DNA of 46,393 bases from Gammaproteobacteria bacterium (GTDB lineage Bacteria; Pseudomonadota; Gammaproteobacteria; Steroidobacterales; Steroidobacteraceae): the NCBI GenBank assembly GCA_024642505.1, contig JAHEAZ010000017.1:1-46393 (forward strand). Direction: 5' to 3'. Made by a program: the position numbers and the translations under genes. Every line of letters starts with the position of its first letter. Positions within the stretch are counted from its first letter, which is position 1. Below, piece by piece: positions 19,785 to 24,675 of this stretch. The notes under the pieces are model-generated. The model was not told the DNA's origin and made no database searches. It worked only from the letters and a program-made list of their open reading frames with translations.

Positions 19785-21026
19785 ATGACGCCGACCCCCG
19801 CCACATCGGCCCGCCGCCACGATATCGACGCGCTGCGCGTGTGCGTCTTCGGCCTGTTGATCCTGTTCCATGTCGGCATGTTCTACTCGCCCTGGGACTG
19901 GCACGTGAAGTCCGATTACATCGCCGGCTGGCTCGAGCTGCCGATGACGCTGAGCCACCAGTGGCGCATGCAGCTGGTGTTCCTGGTCTCCGGCCTGGCG
20001 CTCAACTTCCTCAGACGCCGGACCGGTGACGGACAGCTGGCACGCCAGCGACTGGCCCGCCTCGGCATTCCGCTGCTGTTCGGCATGGCGGTCATCATTC
20101 CACCGCAGGCCTACCTCGAGGCACTCAGGAACGGCGCAACCGAGCCGGGGTATCTCGCCTTCCTGTGGCGCTATTTCACGTTCCAGCCCTGGCCGGAAGG
20201 CGCGTTCGCAGGCTGGCAACTCGGCATCACCTGGAACCACCTGTGGTACCTGCCCTACCTGCTTGCCTACACGCTGGTCGCCATTCCGCTGATGCGTTTC
20301 GTCGACGGCCCGGGCGCCGGCCTGCGTCGCCGCTTTCAGGCGCTGCGAGGCAGCTGGCTCGTGGCGCTGCCACTGGTACCGTTGATGGCATCCGGCCTGT
20401 TCATCTACCCGCACTTCCCGTACATGAACTATTCGCTGGTAGGTGACTGGTACGCCCACTCGCAGTATTTCACCTTCTTCTTCATTGGCTACCTGATCGG
20501 CACCGATGCCGGGCTGTGGGGCGAGTTGGCCCGGCTGCGCAGGCGCGCCCTGGCGCTGGCCCTGGCCAGCTTTGCCACGTTCCTGTTGCTGGCCAGGATC
20601 CTGCCGGACGATCCGACCGGCACGCAGCAGTTTGCGATGTTGCTGGTCACTTACCTGAACCGCTGGATCTGGATCGTCACCGTGCTCGGCTTCGCGCACC
20701 AGTACCTGAACCGACCGTTCCCCTGGCTCAGCTACGCCAACGAAGCCGTCTATCCCTGGTACGTACTGCACCAGACCATTACCGTCGTGACGGGCTACTG
20801 GCTGTCGCAGCAGGCCCTCGGACCGGTTGCCGAACCGACGCTGGTGATCGTTGCCACGATCGGCGGCTGCGCGGTACTGCATGAGTTCGTAATCCGCCGC
20901 AACCGCGTACTTCGCCCGCTGTTTGGCATGAAAGCCCTGCCGACGCGTCCTGCCTGCGACCCTGCTACGATCGCTGGCGGAGGCACCCCATGTCTGCAAG
21001 CGATCTCCGCCGGCTCGAGCGATTGA
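19785..21026 (+). CDS. Acyltransferase-3 family membrane acyltransferase
   Basis: A 413-residue protein with about ten membrane helices. It opens RRHDIDALRVCVFGLLILFH, whose Arg and His (RVxxxxxxxxxH) are the conserved catalytic positions of the family, and has SHQWRMQLVFLVSGLALNFL and TWNHLWYLPYLLAYTLVAIP typical of the OpgC-like glucan-modifying branch. It probably moves acyl groups onto a periplasmic or cell-surface glycan. AGGA precedes the ATG by 7 bases. The last 37 bases overlap the next gene, and the final residues (PACDPATIAGGGTPCLQAIS) may be an extension without function. Confidence 0.86.
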   Translation: MTPTPATSARRHDIDALRVCVFGLLILFHVGMFYSPWDWHVKSDYIAGWLELPMTLSHQWRMQLVFLVSGLALNFLRRRTGDGQLARQRLARLGIPLLFGMAVIIPPQAYLEALRNGATEPGYLAFLWRYFTFQPWPEGAFAGWQLGITWNHLWYLPYLLAYTLVAIPLMRFVDGPGAGLRRRFQALRGSWLVALPLVPLMASGLFIYPHFPYMNYSLVGDWYAHSQYFTFFFIGYLIGTDAGLWGELARLRRRALALALASFATFLLLARILPDDPTGTQQFAMLLVTYLNRWIWIVTVLGFAHQYLNRPFPWLSYANEAVYPWYVLHQTITVVTGYWLSQQALGPVAEPTLVIVATIGGCAVLHEFVIRRNRVLRPLFGMKALPTRPACDPATIAGGGTPCLQAISAGSSD

Positions 21027-22642
21027 AGGTTATCTATGGCAACGGCGGCGCCGATACAAAGCTGGTTGTTCTGCGGCGCCTTGCCCGTCAATCGCTGCGT
21101 ACCGCGGGCCAGGTGGAGCGCCTGCATGAAGCGCTCTGCTTCCTGCGCGCCTATCCGGACGATGAGCGGGTGCTGGCGCAGGTCACGCGCATGCTCGAGC
21201 GCTTCGACCGGCGCGCCGACCTGGTCCTCCACCGCGACCAGCTGACCGATACCGGCATCGCGGGAACGGCGATTCACTATCGCTTCTTCTGGTCGACAGC
21301 CCATTGGCTCGGCCGGCGCTGGCCGAATCAACTGTCTTTCCAGCGCGACGGCGGCGATGCGGCAGAGCGGCTCGGCAAGGCGCTGCCGCTCCTGGCGCCA
21401 CCGATCGCGTCCGAATGGCTGAGCAACGCGCCGCTGGCTGCTTTTTCGGCGATCGACCGGCTGCGTGGACGCCGCGGTGATGCCGCGTGGTTCGTGGAGC
21501 ACGTAGCGCGGATGGCGGGTGACAGCTTCACGCGCGAGGCCTTTGCCGACGCGATAGATGCGCCGTTCGTACTGGCCCCGGGACGCGAAACGCCCTCGCG
21601 CAGCCGTGCGCATTTCGCACCCGCGCCACGCGCATTCCAGTCGACGCCGCTCAGACGAACGCGTCCCGACCTGCGCGCGGCCATCTCGGTCCCGCCGCGC
21701 GGCATCCGGCCACTATCGCGGCGCGACGGCGCGGTGCTGGTCGAACTCGCCCGCGGCGCCATGATCACGCGCGCTCGCGACCTGGCGGCATTCGAGCATG
21801 GCGATGCCCGCGACGTGCGGCTGGTGGACGACGGCGACGGCCTGGCTTTTGCCTTCTGCGGGGTGATGCCGGAGCGGCGCGCGTTGCTGCCCGCGATCTA
21901 CGGTTGCCTGACCCTGAAGAACGGCGTGCCCATCGGCTACGTGCAGGCCGACGTGCTGGGCCCCTACGCGGCGGTGTCATTTAACACCTTCGAGACCTTC
22001 CGCGGCGGCGAAGCCGGTCATGTGTTCGGACGGCTGCTTTCGGCGATTCATCACGTGTTCGGCGCGGAGTCATTCAGCATCGAGCCCTACCAGCTCGGCC
22101 AGGGCAACGAGGAAGGCATCGACACCGGCGCGTGGTGGTTCTACCAGAAACTTGGCTTCCGCCCACGGTCGGTCCGGGCACGGCGGATCATGCGGGCGGA
22201 ACTTGCGCGCATGCGTAGCAGGCCGGGGCATCGCTCATCGGTGCGGACGTTGGCGCAGTTGGCCGAGTGGCACCTGTTTTTCGACCTCGATCCGGCAGTG
22301 GCTCGCGGCCTGCCGCCGGTGCAGGGGGCGCTTGATCGCGCCATCGACTGGCTGGCCCGGCGCGGCGGCGGCGCCGAGGCCGTGGCGGTAGCGGAGCGCT
22401 TAGCTCTCTCGATCACCGGACTGAAATCACTCGCAGGTTTTGGTCGCGACGAACGCGTCGCATGGCGTCGTTGGGCACCGCTTGTCGTTTCGCTACCCGG
22501 GGTATCGCGCTGGCGCCCGAACGAGCGTCGTGAATTGGCCGAAATCGTCCGTGCCAAGGGTGGACGACAGGAATTGGCCTTTCTGGTGCGTTTGGCCGCG
22601 CATCCGCGGCTCGCCAGGGCATTGTTTGGAGGTCAGAGATGA
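20990..22642 (+). CDS. Unrecognised 550-residue protein with a GNAT-like segment
   Basis: A soluble, Arg/Ala-rich 550-residue protein without signal peptide. GGAGG lies 6 bases before ATG 20990, inside the acyltransferase gene, so the two are translationally coupled. The N-terminal third is helical (LHEALCFLRAYPDDERVLAQ). Residues about 300-400 look GNAT-like: PIGYVQADVLGPYAAVSFNT (central strands), GHVFGRLLSAIHHVFGAESF (would-be CoA loop), then GAWWFYQKLGFRPRSVRARR (C-terminal strand). The consensus CoA loop Q/RxxGxG is absent. The C-terminal 150 residues (LAEWHLFFDLDPAVARGLPP) match nothing I recognise. Activity is not assignable from sequence alone. Confidence 0.8.
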   Translation: MSASDLRRLERLKVIYGNGGADTKLVVLRRLARQSLRTAGQVERLHEALCFLRAYPDDERVLAQVTRMLERFDRRADLVLHRDQLTDTGIAGTAIHYRFFWSTAHWLGRRWPNQLSFQRDGGDAAERLGKALPLLAPPIASEWLSNAPLAAFSAIDRLRGRRGDAAWFVEHVARMAGDSFTREAFADAIDAPFVLAPGRETPSRSRAHFAPAPRAFQSTPLRRTRPDLRAAISVPPRGIRPLSRRDGAVLVELARGAMITRARDLAAFEHGDARDVRLVDDGDGLAFAFCGVMPERRALLPAIYGCLTLKNGVPIGYVQADVLGPYAAVSFNTFETFRGGEAGHVFGRLLSAIHHVFGAESFSIEPYQLGQGNEEGIDTGAWWFYQKLGFRPRSVRARRIMRAELARMRSRPGHRSSVRTLAQLAEWHLFFDLDPAVARGLPPVQGALDRAIDWLARRGGGAEAVAVAERLALSITGLKSLAGFGRDERVAWRRWAPLVVSLPGVSRWRPNERRELAEIVRAKGGRQELAFLVRLAAHPRLARALFGGQR

Positions 22643-22647
22643 CTGGT

Positions 22648-22731
22648 GAAATCCGGGGACAGTTTACCTATTTGGTCCTGGCTTCAAGAACGGCAAGCGG
22701 CGTGGAAATAGGTAAACTGTCCCCGGATTTC
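22648..22731. repeat. 26-bp perfect inverted repeat (REP/BIME-like)
   Basis: Left arm 22648-22673 and right arm 22706-22731 are perfect reverse complements around a 32-base centre. The core of the left arm is GGGGACAGTTTACCTATTT. The element fills the gap between the 550-residue gene's stop (22642) and the next ATG (22734). Closely similar 'GGGGACAG...' palindromes flank REP-associated Y1 transposases in many proteobacteria; that resemblance is from memory and should be searched. Confidence 0.9.
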
Positions 22732-22733
22732 CA

Positions 22734-23240
22734 ATGAACCCGATTCGCCAGAACATTCCCCTGCTCGGCCGCCACGAGGGCATCTGGGAGGGCGAGTACA
22801 CGCACGTGGCGCCCGATCGCAGCGTCCAGGAACAGCAGCTGTTTCGCATCCTGGTCGAGTTTCCGGATGACGACCTGATGGCCTACCGCCAGACCAGCCA
22901 CTACTGGTGGCCGGACGGTCGCACACAGCAGCTGATGTATGAGGGCGAGTATCGCGATGGCCGCGTCGTGTTCGACACCGGTCGGATCCGCGGCGCCTGC
23001 TGGCAGGTGGACGACCTGACGATCTATATCCGCTTCGGCTTTCATGACGAGCCGGGGGGCTACGTTTGCGAGATGATCCAGCTGAGCCCCGACGGGGAGC
23101 ACCGCGCCCGCACCTGGCATTGGTTCCGCGACCACCAACTCTGGCGCATTACGCTGGTGCGCGAGCACCGGATCAGCAAGGATGTCGCGCTATTCCGGCA
23201 ATTGGAGGGATCGGCGCCGAAGCTGCCGTGGAAACCATGA
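22734..23240 (+). CDS. DUF3598-like protein
   Basis: A 168-residue soluble protein. It begins MNPIRQNIPLLGRHEGIWEG and has DGRVVFDTGRIRGACWQVDD and MIQLSPDGEHRARTWHWFRD, a layout I associate with the calycin-like DUF3598 family of unknown function; the assignment is moderate. The predicted strands suggest a small beta-barrel. The ATG lies 2 bases beyond the end of the inverted repeat and lacks a normal Shine-Dalgarno (only GGA of the repeat), so translation or promoter signals may have been altered by the repeat. Its stop overlaps the following GNAT start by 4 bases. Confidence 0.75.
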   Translation: MNPIRQNIPLLGRHEGIWEGEYTHVAPDRSVQEQQLFRILVEFPDDDLMAYRQTSHYWWPDGRTQQLMYEGEYRDGRVVFDTGRIRGACWQVDDLTIYIRFGFHDEPGGYVCEMIQLSPDGEHRARTWHWFRDHQLWRITLVREHRISKDVALFRQLEGSAPKLPWKP

Positions 23241-23794
23241 GCACCCTGCCCGATGTCATGCTCGAGACAGTTCGCCTGATCCTGCGCCCACCCAGGCTCG
23301 AGGACTTCGACGCCTGGGCGGCGTCGACCGCGGATCCCGAGGGCATGAAATTCCTTGGTGGCCCGCAGCCGCGCCCGACCGCATGGCGCGCCTTTGCGGG
23401 CATGGCCGGCTCATGGGCCTTGCTGGGATTCGGCATGTTCTCGGTGCTGGAGAAGTCCACCGGGCGCTGGGTCGGGCGTGTCGGACCCATCCGGCCCGAG
23501 GGGTGGCCAGGGCCAGAAGTCGGCTGGGCAGTCATCAGTGATGTGCAGGGAACGGGTATCGCTTTCGAGGCCGCCGTCGCCAGCGTCGACTTTGCCTTCG
23601 ACCAGCTCGGCTGGACCGAGGTGATCCACTGCGTCGACGACGTGAACCTGCGTTCCGCCGCGCTGGCGCAGCGGCTCGGCTCCGAACGGCTGCGCCGGGC
23701 AACCCTGCCACCACCGTTCGAAGGCACTGAGCTACAGGTGTGGGGCCAGAGCCGCGAAGCCTGGAGGGCCCGCCGCCCGACCCTGGCCGACTAG
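23237..23794 (+). CDS. GNAT acetyltransferase, RimJ/RimL-like
   Basis: A 185-residue GNAT of the ribosomal-protein-alanine-acetyltransferase type. It opens LETVRLILRPPRLEDFDAWA, the standard RimJ/RimL start, has VGRVGPIRPEGWPGPEVGWA and VIHCVDDVNLRSAALAQRLG. The acetyl-CoA loop (VQGTGIAFEA) is weaker than usual, lacking the R/QGxGxG consensus. Its ATG overlaps the previous stop (ATGA), which makes co-expression with the DUF3598-like protein likely. Its TAG shares a CTAG with a converging small gene. Substrate unknown. Confidence 0.87.
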   Translation: MSTLPDVMLETVRLILRPPRLEDFDAWAASTADPEGMKFLGGPQPRPTAWRAFAGMAGSWALLGFGMFSVLEKSTGRWVGRVGPIRPEGWPGPEVGWAVISDVQGTGIAFEAAVASVDFAFDQLGWTEVIHCVDDVNLRSAALAQRLGSERLRRATLPPPFEGTELQVWGQSREAWRARRPTLAD

Positions 23795-23963: not shown

Positions 23964-24569
23964 TCAGTGCCCGCCCTGCACGAACAGGCCGGCCGCGCGC
24001 AGCGCCTCGGCCAGTTCTTCTTCGATTCGCGCCGCTTCCGCACGGGGTATGAATTGCAGGTGCAGCACCGGGCCAGTGAGCACCTCGAGACCCCGCTTCA
24101 GCACACTGCCGGCCGCACGAATCCCAGCCTTGTGCTGGTCGAAGCGCTGTGCCGGCGGATACTTGCTCATGCCGACATAGACGCCGTGGGGATCGGCGCG
24201 GCTGTCGCTATAGTCGAGCAGCACCAGGTAGATGTTGGTCCGACCCTTGCCAGTCGCGTGACAACGGCCCGCCACCTCGTAGGCAGTCGGCAGCCAGTGC
24301 ACGTAACGCATCGGCATCCAGTCGGGAACGGTATCGGCCGCGGCTTCCCACAGTCGAGTTAGAGCAGTTTCCACATGAGCGGGAAACTCTCCGCGCATCC
24401 ATAGCTCGTGGACGCAATGCGAACCACCGGGTCCATCACCCGCGGCAATGGCCGCGTCGAATCGTTCCCGCAATGCCACGGCACCGAGCGCCCGGAACGG
24501 TCTGCTCGCAGGCGTCGGCGACTTCGGTGCTGGCCGGCGCTTGCCAGACTTCGTGGGATCAGCCTTCAT
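23964..24569 (-). CDS. GIY-YIG-like domain protein
   Basis: From ATG 24569 (GGAG 6 bases upstream) it has 201 residues; ATG 24587 is an alternative. The C-terminal half has the GIY-YIG layout: TNIYLVLLDYSD (first motif), GVYVGMSKYPPAQRFDQHKA (second motif with the conserved Arg), and a Glu-bearing helix ARIEEELAEALRAAGL. The insertion SRADPHG between the first two strands is unusual. The N-terminal 100 residues (LRERFDAAIAAGDGPGGSH, ELWMRGEFPAHVETALTRLW) are not recognised. GIY-YIG enzymes cut DNA; whether this one is active is uncertain. Confidence 0.78.
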   Translation of the reverse strand: MKADPTKSGKRRPAPKSPTPASRPFRALGAVALRERFDAAIAAGDGPGGSHCVHELWMRGEFPAHVETALTRLWEAAADTVPDWMPMRYVHWLPTAYEVAGRCHATGKGRTNIYLVLLDYSDSRADPHGVYVGMSKYPPAQRFDQHKAGIRAAGSVLKRGLEVLTGPVLHLQFIPRAEAARIEEELAEALRAAGLFVQGGH

Positions 24570-24675
24570 CCGCGGCTCCGACCTCATGCAAATCGAACTG
24601 CTCTATGATGGAGCCGAACAGCCCGCGAGTCATAGAACTACATTCACCGCAATTGCAGGATTTGCAGACACGAAC

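Follow-up and report, generated by a model that had tools for sequence, protein, structure and literature searches.

Acyltransferases of the GNAT superfamily (PF00583; e.g., SpeG, RimL, and PseH) bind the pyrophosphate of CoA through a loop of the form [QR]-x-x-G-x-[GA], and a tyrosine on helix α4, typical of thioester chemistry with CoA, acts as the general acid. FemAB-like transferases (PF13480) have a GNAT-type domain, and the group includes proteins with donors other than CoA. For the AT3 (acyltransferase-3) membrane proteins, passages of one review (PMC9558356) give acetyl-CoA as the donor of CmmA, TmaT, and OatA. The window examined here, i.e., the whole stretch of 46,393 nucleotides from a Steroidobacteraceae genome (contig JAHEAZ010000017.1), encodes a protein of 550 residues whose gene starts inside an AT3 gene (Table 1). 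The family of this protein shares with GNATs the core fold, the RG at the CoA loop, and the N and FYxKLGF motif of α4. It differs from them in its R-x-x-E-x-[AG] loop, in having no Pfam match, and in the mainly helical residues, about 240 before the core and 150 after it, among which some are invariant. The AT3/MdoC-OpgC protein (PF01757) is an integral membrane protein encoded by a separate gene with no recurring adjacency to the family, and has just its position next door in the source genome in common with the 550-residue protein.

Table 1. Coordinates of the 550-residue protein, its parts, and the adjoining gene in the window.
Feature	Codons	Position	Strand	Basis or remark
AT3 (acyltransferase-3) protein, MdoC-like		19785..21026	+	PF01757, NF003014; neighbor only, not a conserved partner
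GGAGG, likely ribosome-binding site		20979..20983	+	sequence
ORF of the 550-residue protein		20990..22642	+	open frame, homologues, AlphaFold2 model
N-terminal region, mainly helical, invariant H46, A54, P56	1-215	20990..21634	+	AlphaFold2, alignment
GNAT-fold core, alpha/beta	about 238-395	21701..22174	+	AlphaFold2, Foldseek, VIA-align, hhalign
Altered CoA loop, R-G-G-E-A-G	338-343	22001..22018	+	alignment, hhalign
W-F-Y-Q-K-L-G-F, Tyr385 at the GNAT general-acid position	383-390	22136..22159	+	alignment, hhalign
C-terminal region, mainly helical, invariant E404, L421, K523	396-550	22175..22639	+	AlphaFold2, alignment

The ORF has its own GGAGG and overlaps the AT3 ORF by 37 nt, as a preliminary description of the window had stated; its ATG lies 6 nt downstream of the GGAGG. 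Homologues were found in six of 59 searched genomes, the source genome counted, and three of the others are near full-length at 65 to 70% identity (G029, 70%; G005, 68%; G004, 65%; the three closest relatives), with a methionine at the same start position in two of them (locus L003 of G005 and L004 of G004). Because of these close homologues and of relatives at 399 loci in a species collection, the coding status of the ORF is not due to chance, and it is a real gene. The upstream AT3 protein matched PF01757 (E 7.4e-29) and NF003014 (E 6.2e-38, under that family's own cut-off). The gap that separates the ORF from the following gene contains an inverted pair of CCGGGGACAGTTTACCTATTT (22653–22726). 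It resembles a REP-type palindromic element, and the source genome has seven copies as compared to none of a reversed control. Farther downstream are genes for a DUF3598_N protein (22734–23240) and an ordinary Acetyltransf_3-type GNAT (23234–23794), followed on the minus strand by an ORF (23967–24587) with a below-threshold GIY-YIG match (E 0.0074).

The 550-residue protein had no Pfam or NCBIfam match up to a limit of E 10, a search in which the HMMER filters discard most matches above about 0.1; no Pfam family reached its gathering score, the GNAT model included. No match was found among PDB sequences, and a profile of the family returned one PDB match (2g9w, E 0.08, over 74 positions of the C-terminal part), which was taken as chance. 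An Acetyltransf_1 signal was detected in just one of 101 member cores (E 0.18). No relative turned up in viral contigs, plasmids, or phages, and a mobile origin was rejected on this ground. Unknown families of uncultured taxa have been catalogued (e.g., PMC10849945); the literature searched names no such family, which may nonetheless be in print elsewhere. The preliminary description, which had called the protein unrecognised and its C-terminal 150 or so residues without match, thus agrees with these searches, and the protein is a member of a large, stand-alone, unnamed family.

Relatives are encoded at 399 of 444 pattern-matched stretches in a collection of species. The best 80 of these 399 loci, 40 to 70% identical to the 550-residue protein, were kept; they come mostly from metagenome bins and, judged from their record titles, span 11 named phyla, i.e., Pseudomonadota (39), Planctomycetota (13), Acidobacteriota (10), Gemmatimonadota (3), Actinomycetota, Eiseniibacteriota, and Krumholzibacteriota (2 each), and Myxococcota, Latescibacterota, Chloroflexota, and Cyanobacteriota (1 each), with five loci unassigned. 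Across almost their entire length, members from other phyla share 40 to 50% identity with the protein, in keeping with a conserved function. With a profile built from six members, the family was found in at least 48 of the 296 genomes sampled from the order and in at least one of 369 genomes spread evenly over the class, this one being the source genome itself; both counts are lower bounds because three or four candidates were scored per genome. Identity to the 550-residue protein fell to 25 to 30% within the order. A single family match was present in 47 of 50 carrier genomes. In a FastTree tree of 75 rows, the Pseudomonadota, Planctomycetota, and Acidobacteriota were each split, the well-supported branches forcing at least five, six, and four changes, respectively. 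This fits transfer between phyla, and mis-binned contigs or paralogues are also possible. At two loci (L108 and L140), open frames of about 1000 residues appear to reflect frame extension in GC-rich DNA rather than fusions. As the family is large, conserved at full length across phyla, and without a Pfam or NCBIfam match, naming it and testing donor binding would provide an annotation for a gene that hundreds of genomes carry.

Conservation was assessed in a set of 101 members, comprising the 550-residue protein, 74 of the 80 kept loci, and 26 of 30 loci from the order sample; six near-copies were left out, as were a duplicate of the source protein and three re-found loci. AlphaFold2 models were made of the full protein (pLDDT 95.7, pTM 0.93, with 101 homologues) and of the core alone (pLDDT 94.6, pTM 0.91). 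The full model reproduced the layout proposed in the preliminary description, with a helical N-terminal region, a GNAT-like middle, and a distinct C-terminal part, the latter mainly helical (residues 396–546). The GNAT-like middle had been placed at residues 290 to 410; its presence stood, while these limits did not, the modeled core extending further left. In the 550-residue protein, hydropathy over 19 residues reached a maximum of 1.18, with no strongly hydrophobic stretch, in keeping with a soluble protein; 13 of the 101 members have a 19-residue stretch above 1.6, a point against solubility. Sixteen positions were invariant (101/101), these being the flank residues named in Table 1 together with R263, R297, Y317, R338, Q368, G370, G380, W383, F384, and G389. 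Constancy near residues 49 to 57 and 379 to 386 is partly built in, because the loci of the species collection were found by two peptide patterns; the 26 order-sample loci, found by profile, agree with invariance in both places.

The fold of the core was compared with known structures and with profiles of ordinary GNATs. Foldseek returned nothing at E ≤ 0.001 with either model, and the GNAT match of the core is accordingly a distant one; among the matches listed, those of the full model were almost all GNAT proteins (best E 0.03), and the 50 listed for the core alone were GNAT proteins (E 0.002–0.03). VIA-align of the core gave Z 7.8 to 8.9 over 113 to 140 residues in the 50 rows listed, where a Z of 8 to 9 is near the typical value for models without a clear match. 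The best row was SpeG (7kwh_F; Z 8.9, rmsd 4.2 over 136 residues), and SpeG, RimL, PseH, PanZ, antizyme, and others were tied in this listing. Its rows were GNAT enzymes or proteins that share their fold, among them antizyme and phage Mu Mom. With the full model, GNAT rows reached Z 7.6 at residues of about 240 to 437, just below the two top rows, which at Z 7.9 and 7.7 were helical chains aligned to the N-terminal part. This likeness to helical chains (e.g., Integrator and COP subunits) lies below the level that the tool treats as meaningful for helical models and was set aside. In profile–profile alignment by hhalign against 30 ordinary GNATs, taken out of 100 listed matches in five related genomes, the family core scored 39.4 over 84 columns (probability 82.6), as compared to 10.7 and 11.0 for reversed controls. 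In this alignment, NGVPIGY fell on the GNAT strand region, R338-G339 coincided with the CoA loop, and FYxKLGF matched the lYexlGF motif of α4. Structure comparison and profile–profile alignment together support a GNAT fold for the core, in keeping with the likeness first proposed.

The loop expected to bind CoA is altered, as the preliminary description had noted in pointing to the missing Q/RxxGxG. R-x-x-E-x-[AG] was found at this place in 81 of 101 members and the canonical form in one, and for this reason the assignment to GNATs covers the superfamily fold and does not extend to a CoA-using family. Among individual residues, E341 occurs in 94 members, Y385 in 100, and R338 and Q368 in all. 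The altered loop together with the retained Y385 suggests an enzyme that would still handle a thioester, with the carrier held differently.

We consider it somewhat more probable than not (about 0.55) that the protein is a soluble, cytosolic, stand-alone GNAT-superfamily acyltransferase whose donor site has been remodelled. The computed features behind this reading are the GNAT-fold core, the conserved R-x-x-E-x-[AG] loop, the tyrosine kept in FYxKLGF, the invariant residues in both helical flanks, and the lack of a recurring gene partner. In such an enzyme, the core would bind an acyl thioester and Tyr385 would protonate the leaving thiolate, while the loop glutamate may alter how the carrier binds, or which carrier does. 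Both helical regions would pack on the core and help to shape the acceptor pocket, the acceptor probably being an amine, on either a small cytosolic molecule or a protein, and the gene's place behind an AT3 gene in the source genome would be due to chance. The loop glutamate should disfavour the CoA pyrophosphate, which counts against this explanation, as do the absence of Foldseek matches at E ≤ 0.001, the Z values near those of models without a clear match, the helical chains ranked above GNATs for the full model, and the single Acetyltransf_1 signal among the member cores. Should a different donor lie behind the altered loop, the known range of the GNAT fold would widen.

It is possible but unlikely that the protein is a transferase derived from GNATs in which the use of CoA has been lost, the loop holding no pyrophosphate and the donor being an acyl-carrier protein or some other activated carrier. 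The near-constant E341 and the single member with a canonical loop speak for it, and the invariant core arginines 263, 297, and 338 could hold another phosphate or a carboxylate; the retention of Y385, the residue typical of CoA thioester chemistry in GNATs, speaks against it. The FemAB-like profile also speaks against it, since its hhalign alignment to the family core, made with one set of 23 sequences, scored 13.9, not above reversed controls (12.4 and 13.4), and a FemAB-like origin was discarded for want of such a signal; FemAB-like proteins scored 27.9 against ordinary GNATs. Extended to the whole pan-phylum family, with the acidic loop replacing the CoA pyrophosphate loop, helical flanks, and group transfer from a non-CoA carrier throughout, the proposal appears less probable again. 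If true, a non-CoA carrier would be a new class of donor for the GNAT fold, in hundreds of mostly uncultured bacteria.

Alternatively, the GNAT fold might be noncatalytic and serve in sensing or regulation, as in PanZ and ornithine decarboxylase antizyme, a reading we regard as improbable and rank below both of the preceding ones. The fold comparison lists PanZ (4crz and 2k5t) and antizyme (4zgy) at Z 8.1–8.8, and a single copy in most carrier genomes would suit a regulator. However, both proteins tie with ordinary enzymes in the same listing, and the invariant polar residues are of active-site type. No neighboring gene recurs, although a regulatory partner need not adjoin.

Genomic context was surveyed in the closest relatives and in 50 carrier genomes, the latter representing 50 of the 80 kept loci and picked without regard to AT3. 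No AT3 gene was detected with PF01757 in G029 or G004 (95 and 87% complete), and G005 has two, both on contigs other than that of the family gene, such that in none of the three does the family gene lie behind an AT3 gene. Of the 50 carriers, 34 had an AT3 match and 16 had none. The genome-wide count of adjacency, proposed as a check in the preliminary description, gave 0 of 50, with the reservation that AT3 genes past contig ends in fragmented assemblies or on short contigs could escape. Only two contigs in these carriers, both single-contig chromosomes, held an AT3 and a family gene together, more than 200 kb apart. Searches with the source AT3 protein alone also revealed no AT3 near other members, a weak result in that they missed the AT3 genes of G005 found with PF01757. 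Moreover, AT3 proteins reported to use acetyl-CoA themselves do not require a soluble acyl supplier. The originally proposed GNAT-like partner, which would supply the AT3 membrane protein with acyl groups or redirect them, is suggested by the 37-nt overlap and common strand in the source genome but, as a trait of the family, is contradicted by the missing AT3 genes and absent adjacency and is rejected as very improbable. The AT3 gene next door is most likely a chance neighbor, and annotations should not carry forward a pairing between the family and a membrane acyltransferase.

No recurring Pfam family was found among adjacent genes in either of two samples. The first consisted of 124 genes of 90 to 1100 residues from 74 of the 80 loci, in which 191 families were represented, the commonest in 4 of 124. 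The second covered 25 further loci of same-order members and close relatives, with 87 of 94 listed genes used (of those left out, four belonged to a near-duplicate locus and three were doubtful or very long), and here the commonest family occurred in 3 of 87. Simple gene calling predicted the family gene at 68 of 81 loci, and 38 of 62 upstream and 23 of 65 downstream neighbors were on its strand. ORFs at the 80 loci, with flanks of up to 8 kb and many shorter, were also clustered, and the 45 largest clusters were inspected. These showed the family proteins with their shadow frames, runs common to betaproteobacterial loci, and clusters named by eye as ABC-transporter-like (16 loci), sensor-kinase-like (6 loci), and enoyl-CoA-hydratase-like (5 loci), all three of them large superfamilies present on both strands. 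An exosortase/PEP-CTERM link was also discarded, as PF09721 showed no positive association with the family in the order sample (16 of 48 carriers versus 98 of 248 noncarriers) and was not found in the source genome. Two divergent members of one genus (L134 and L137) adjoin apparent msbA and lpxK genes, as judged by eye; LpxK was matched in 2 of the 87 neighbors, presumably at these same loci.
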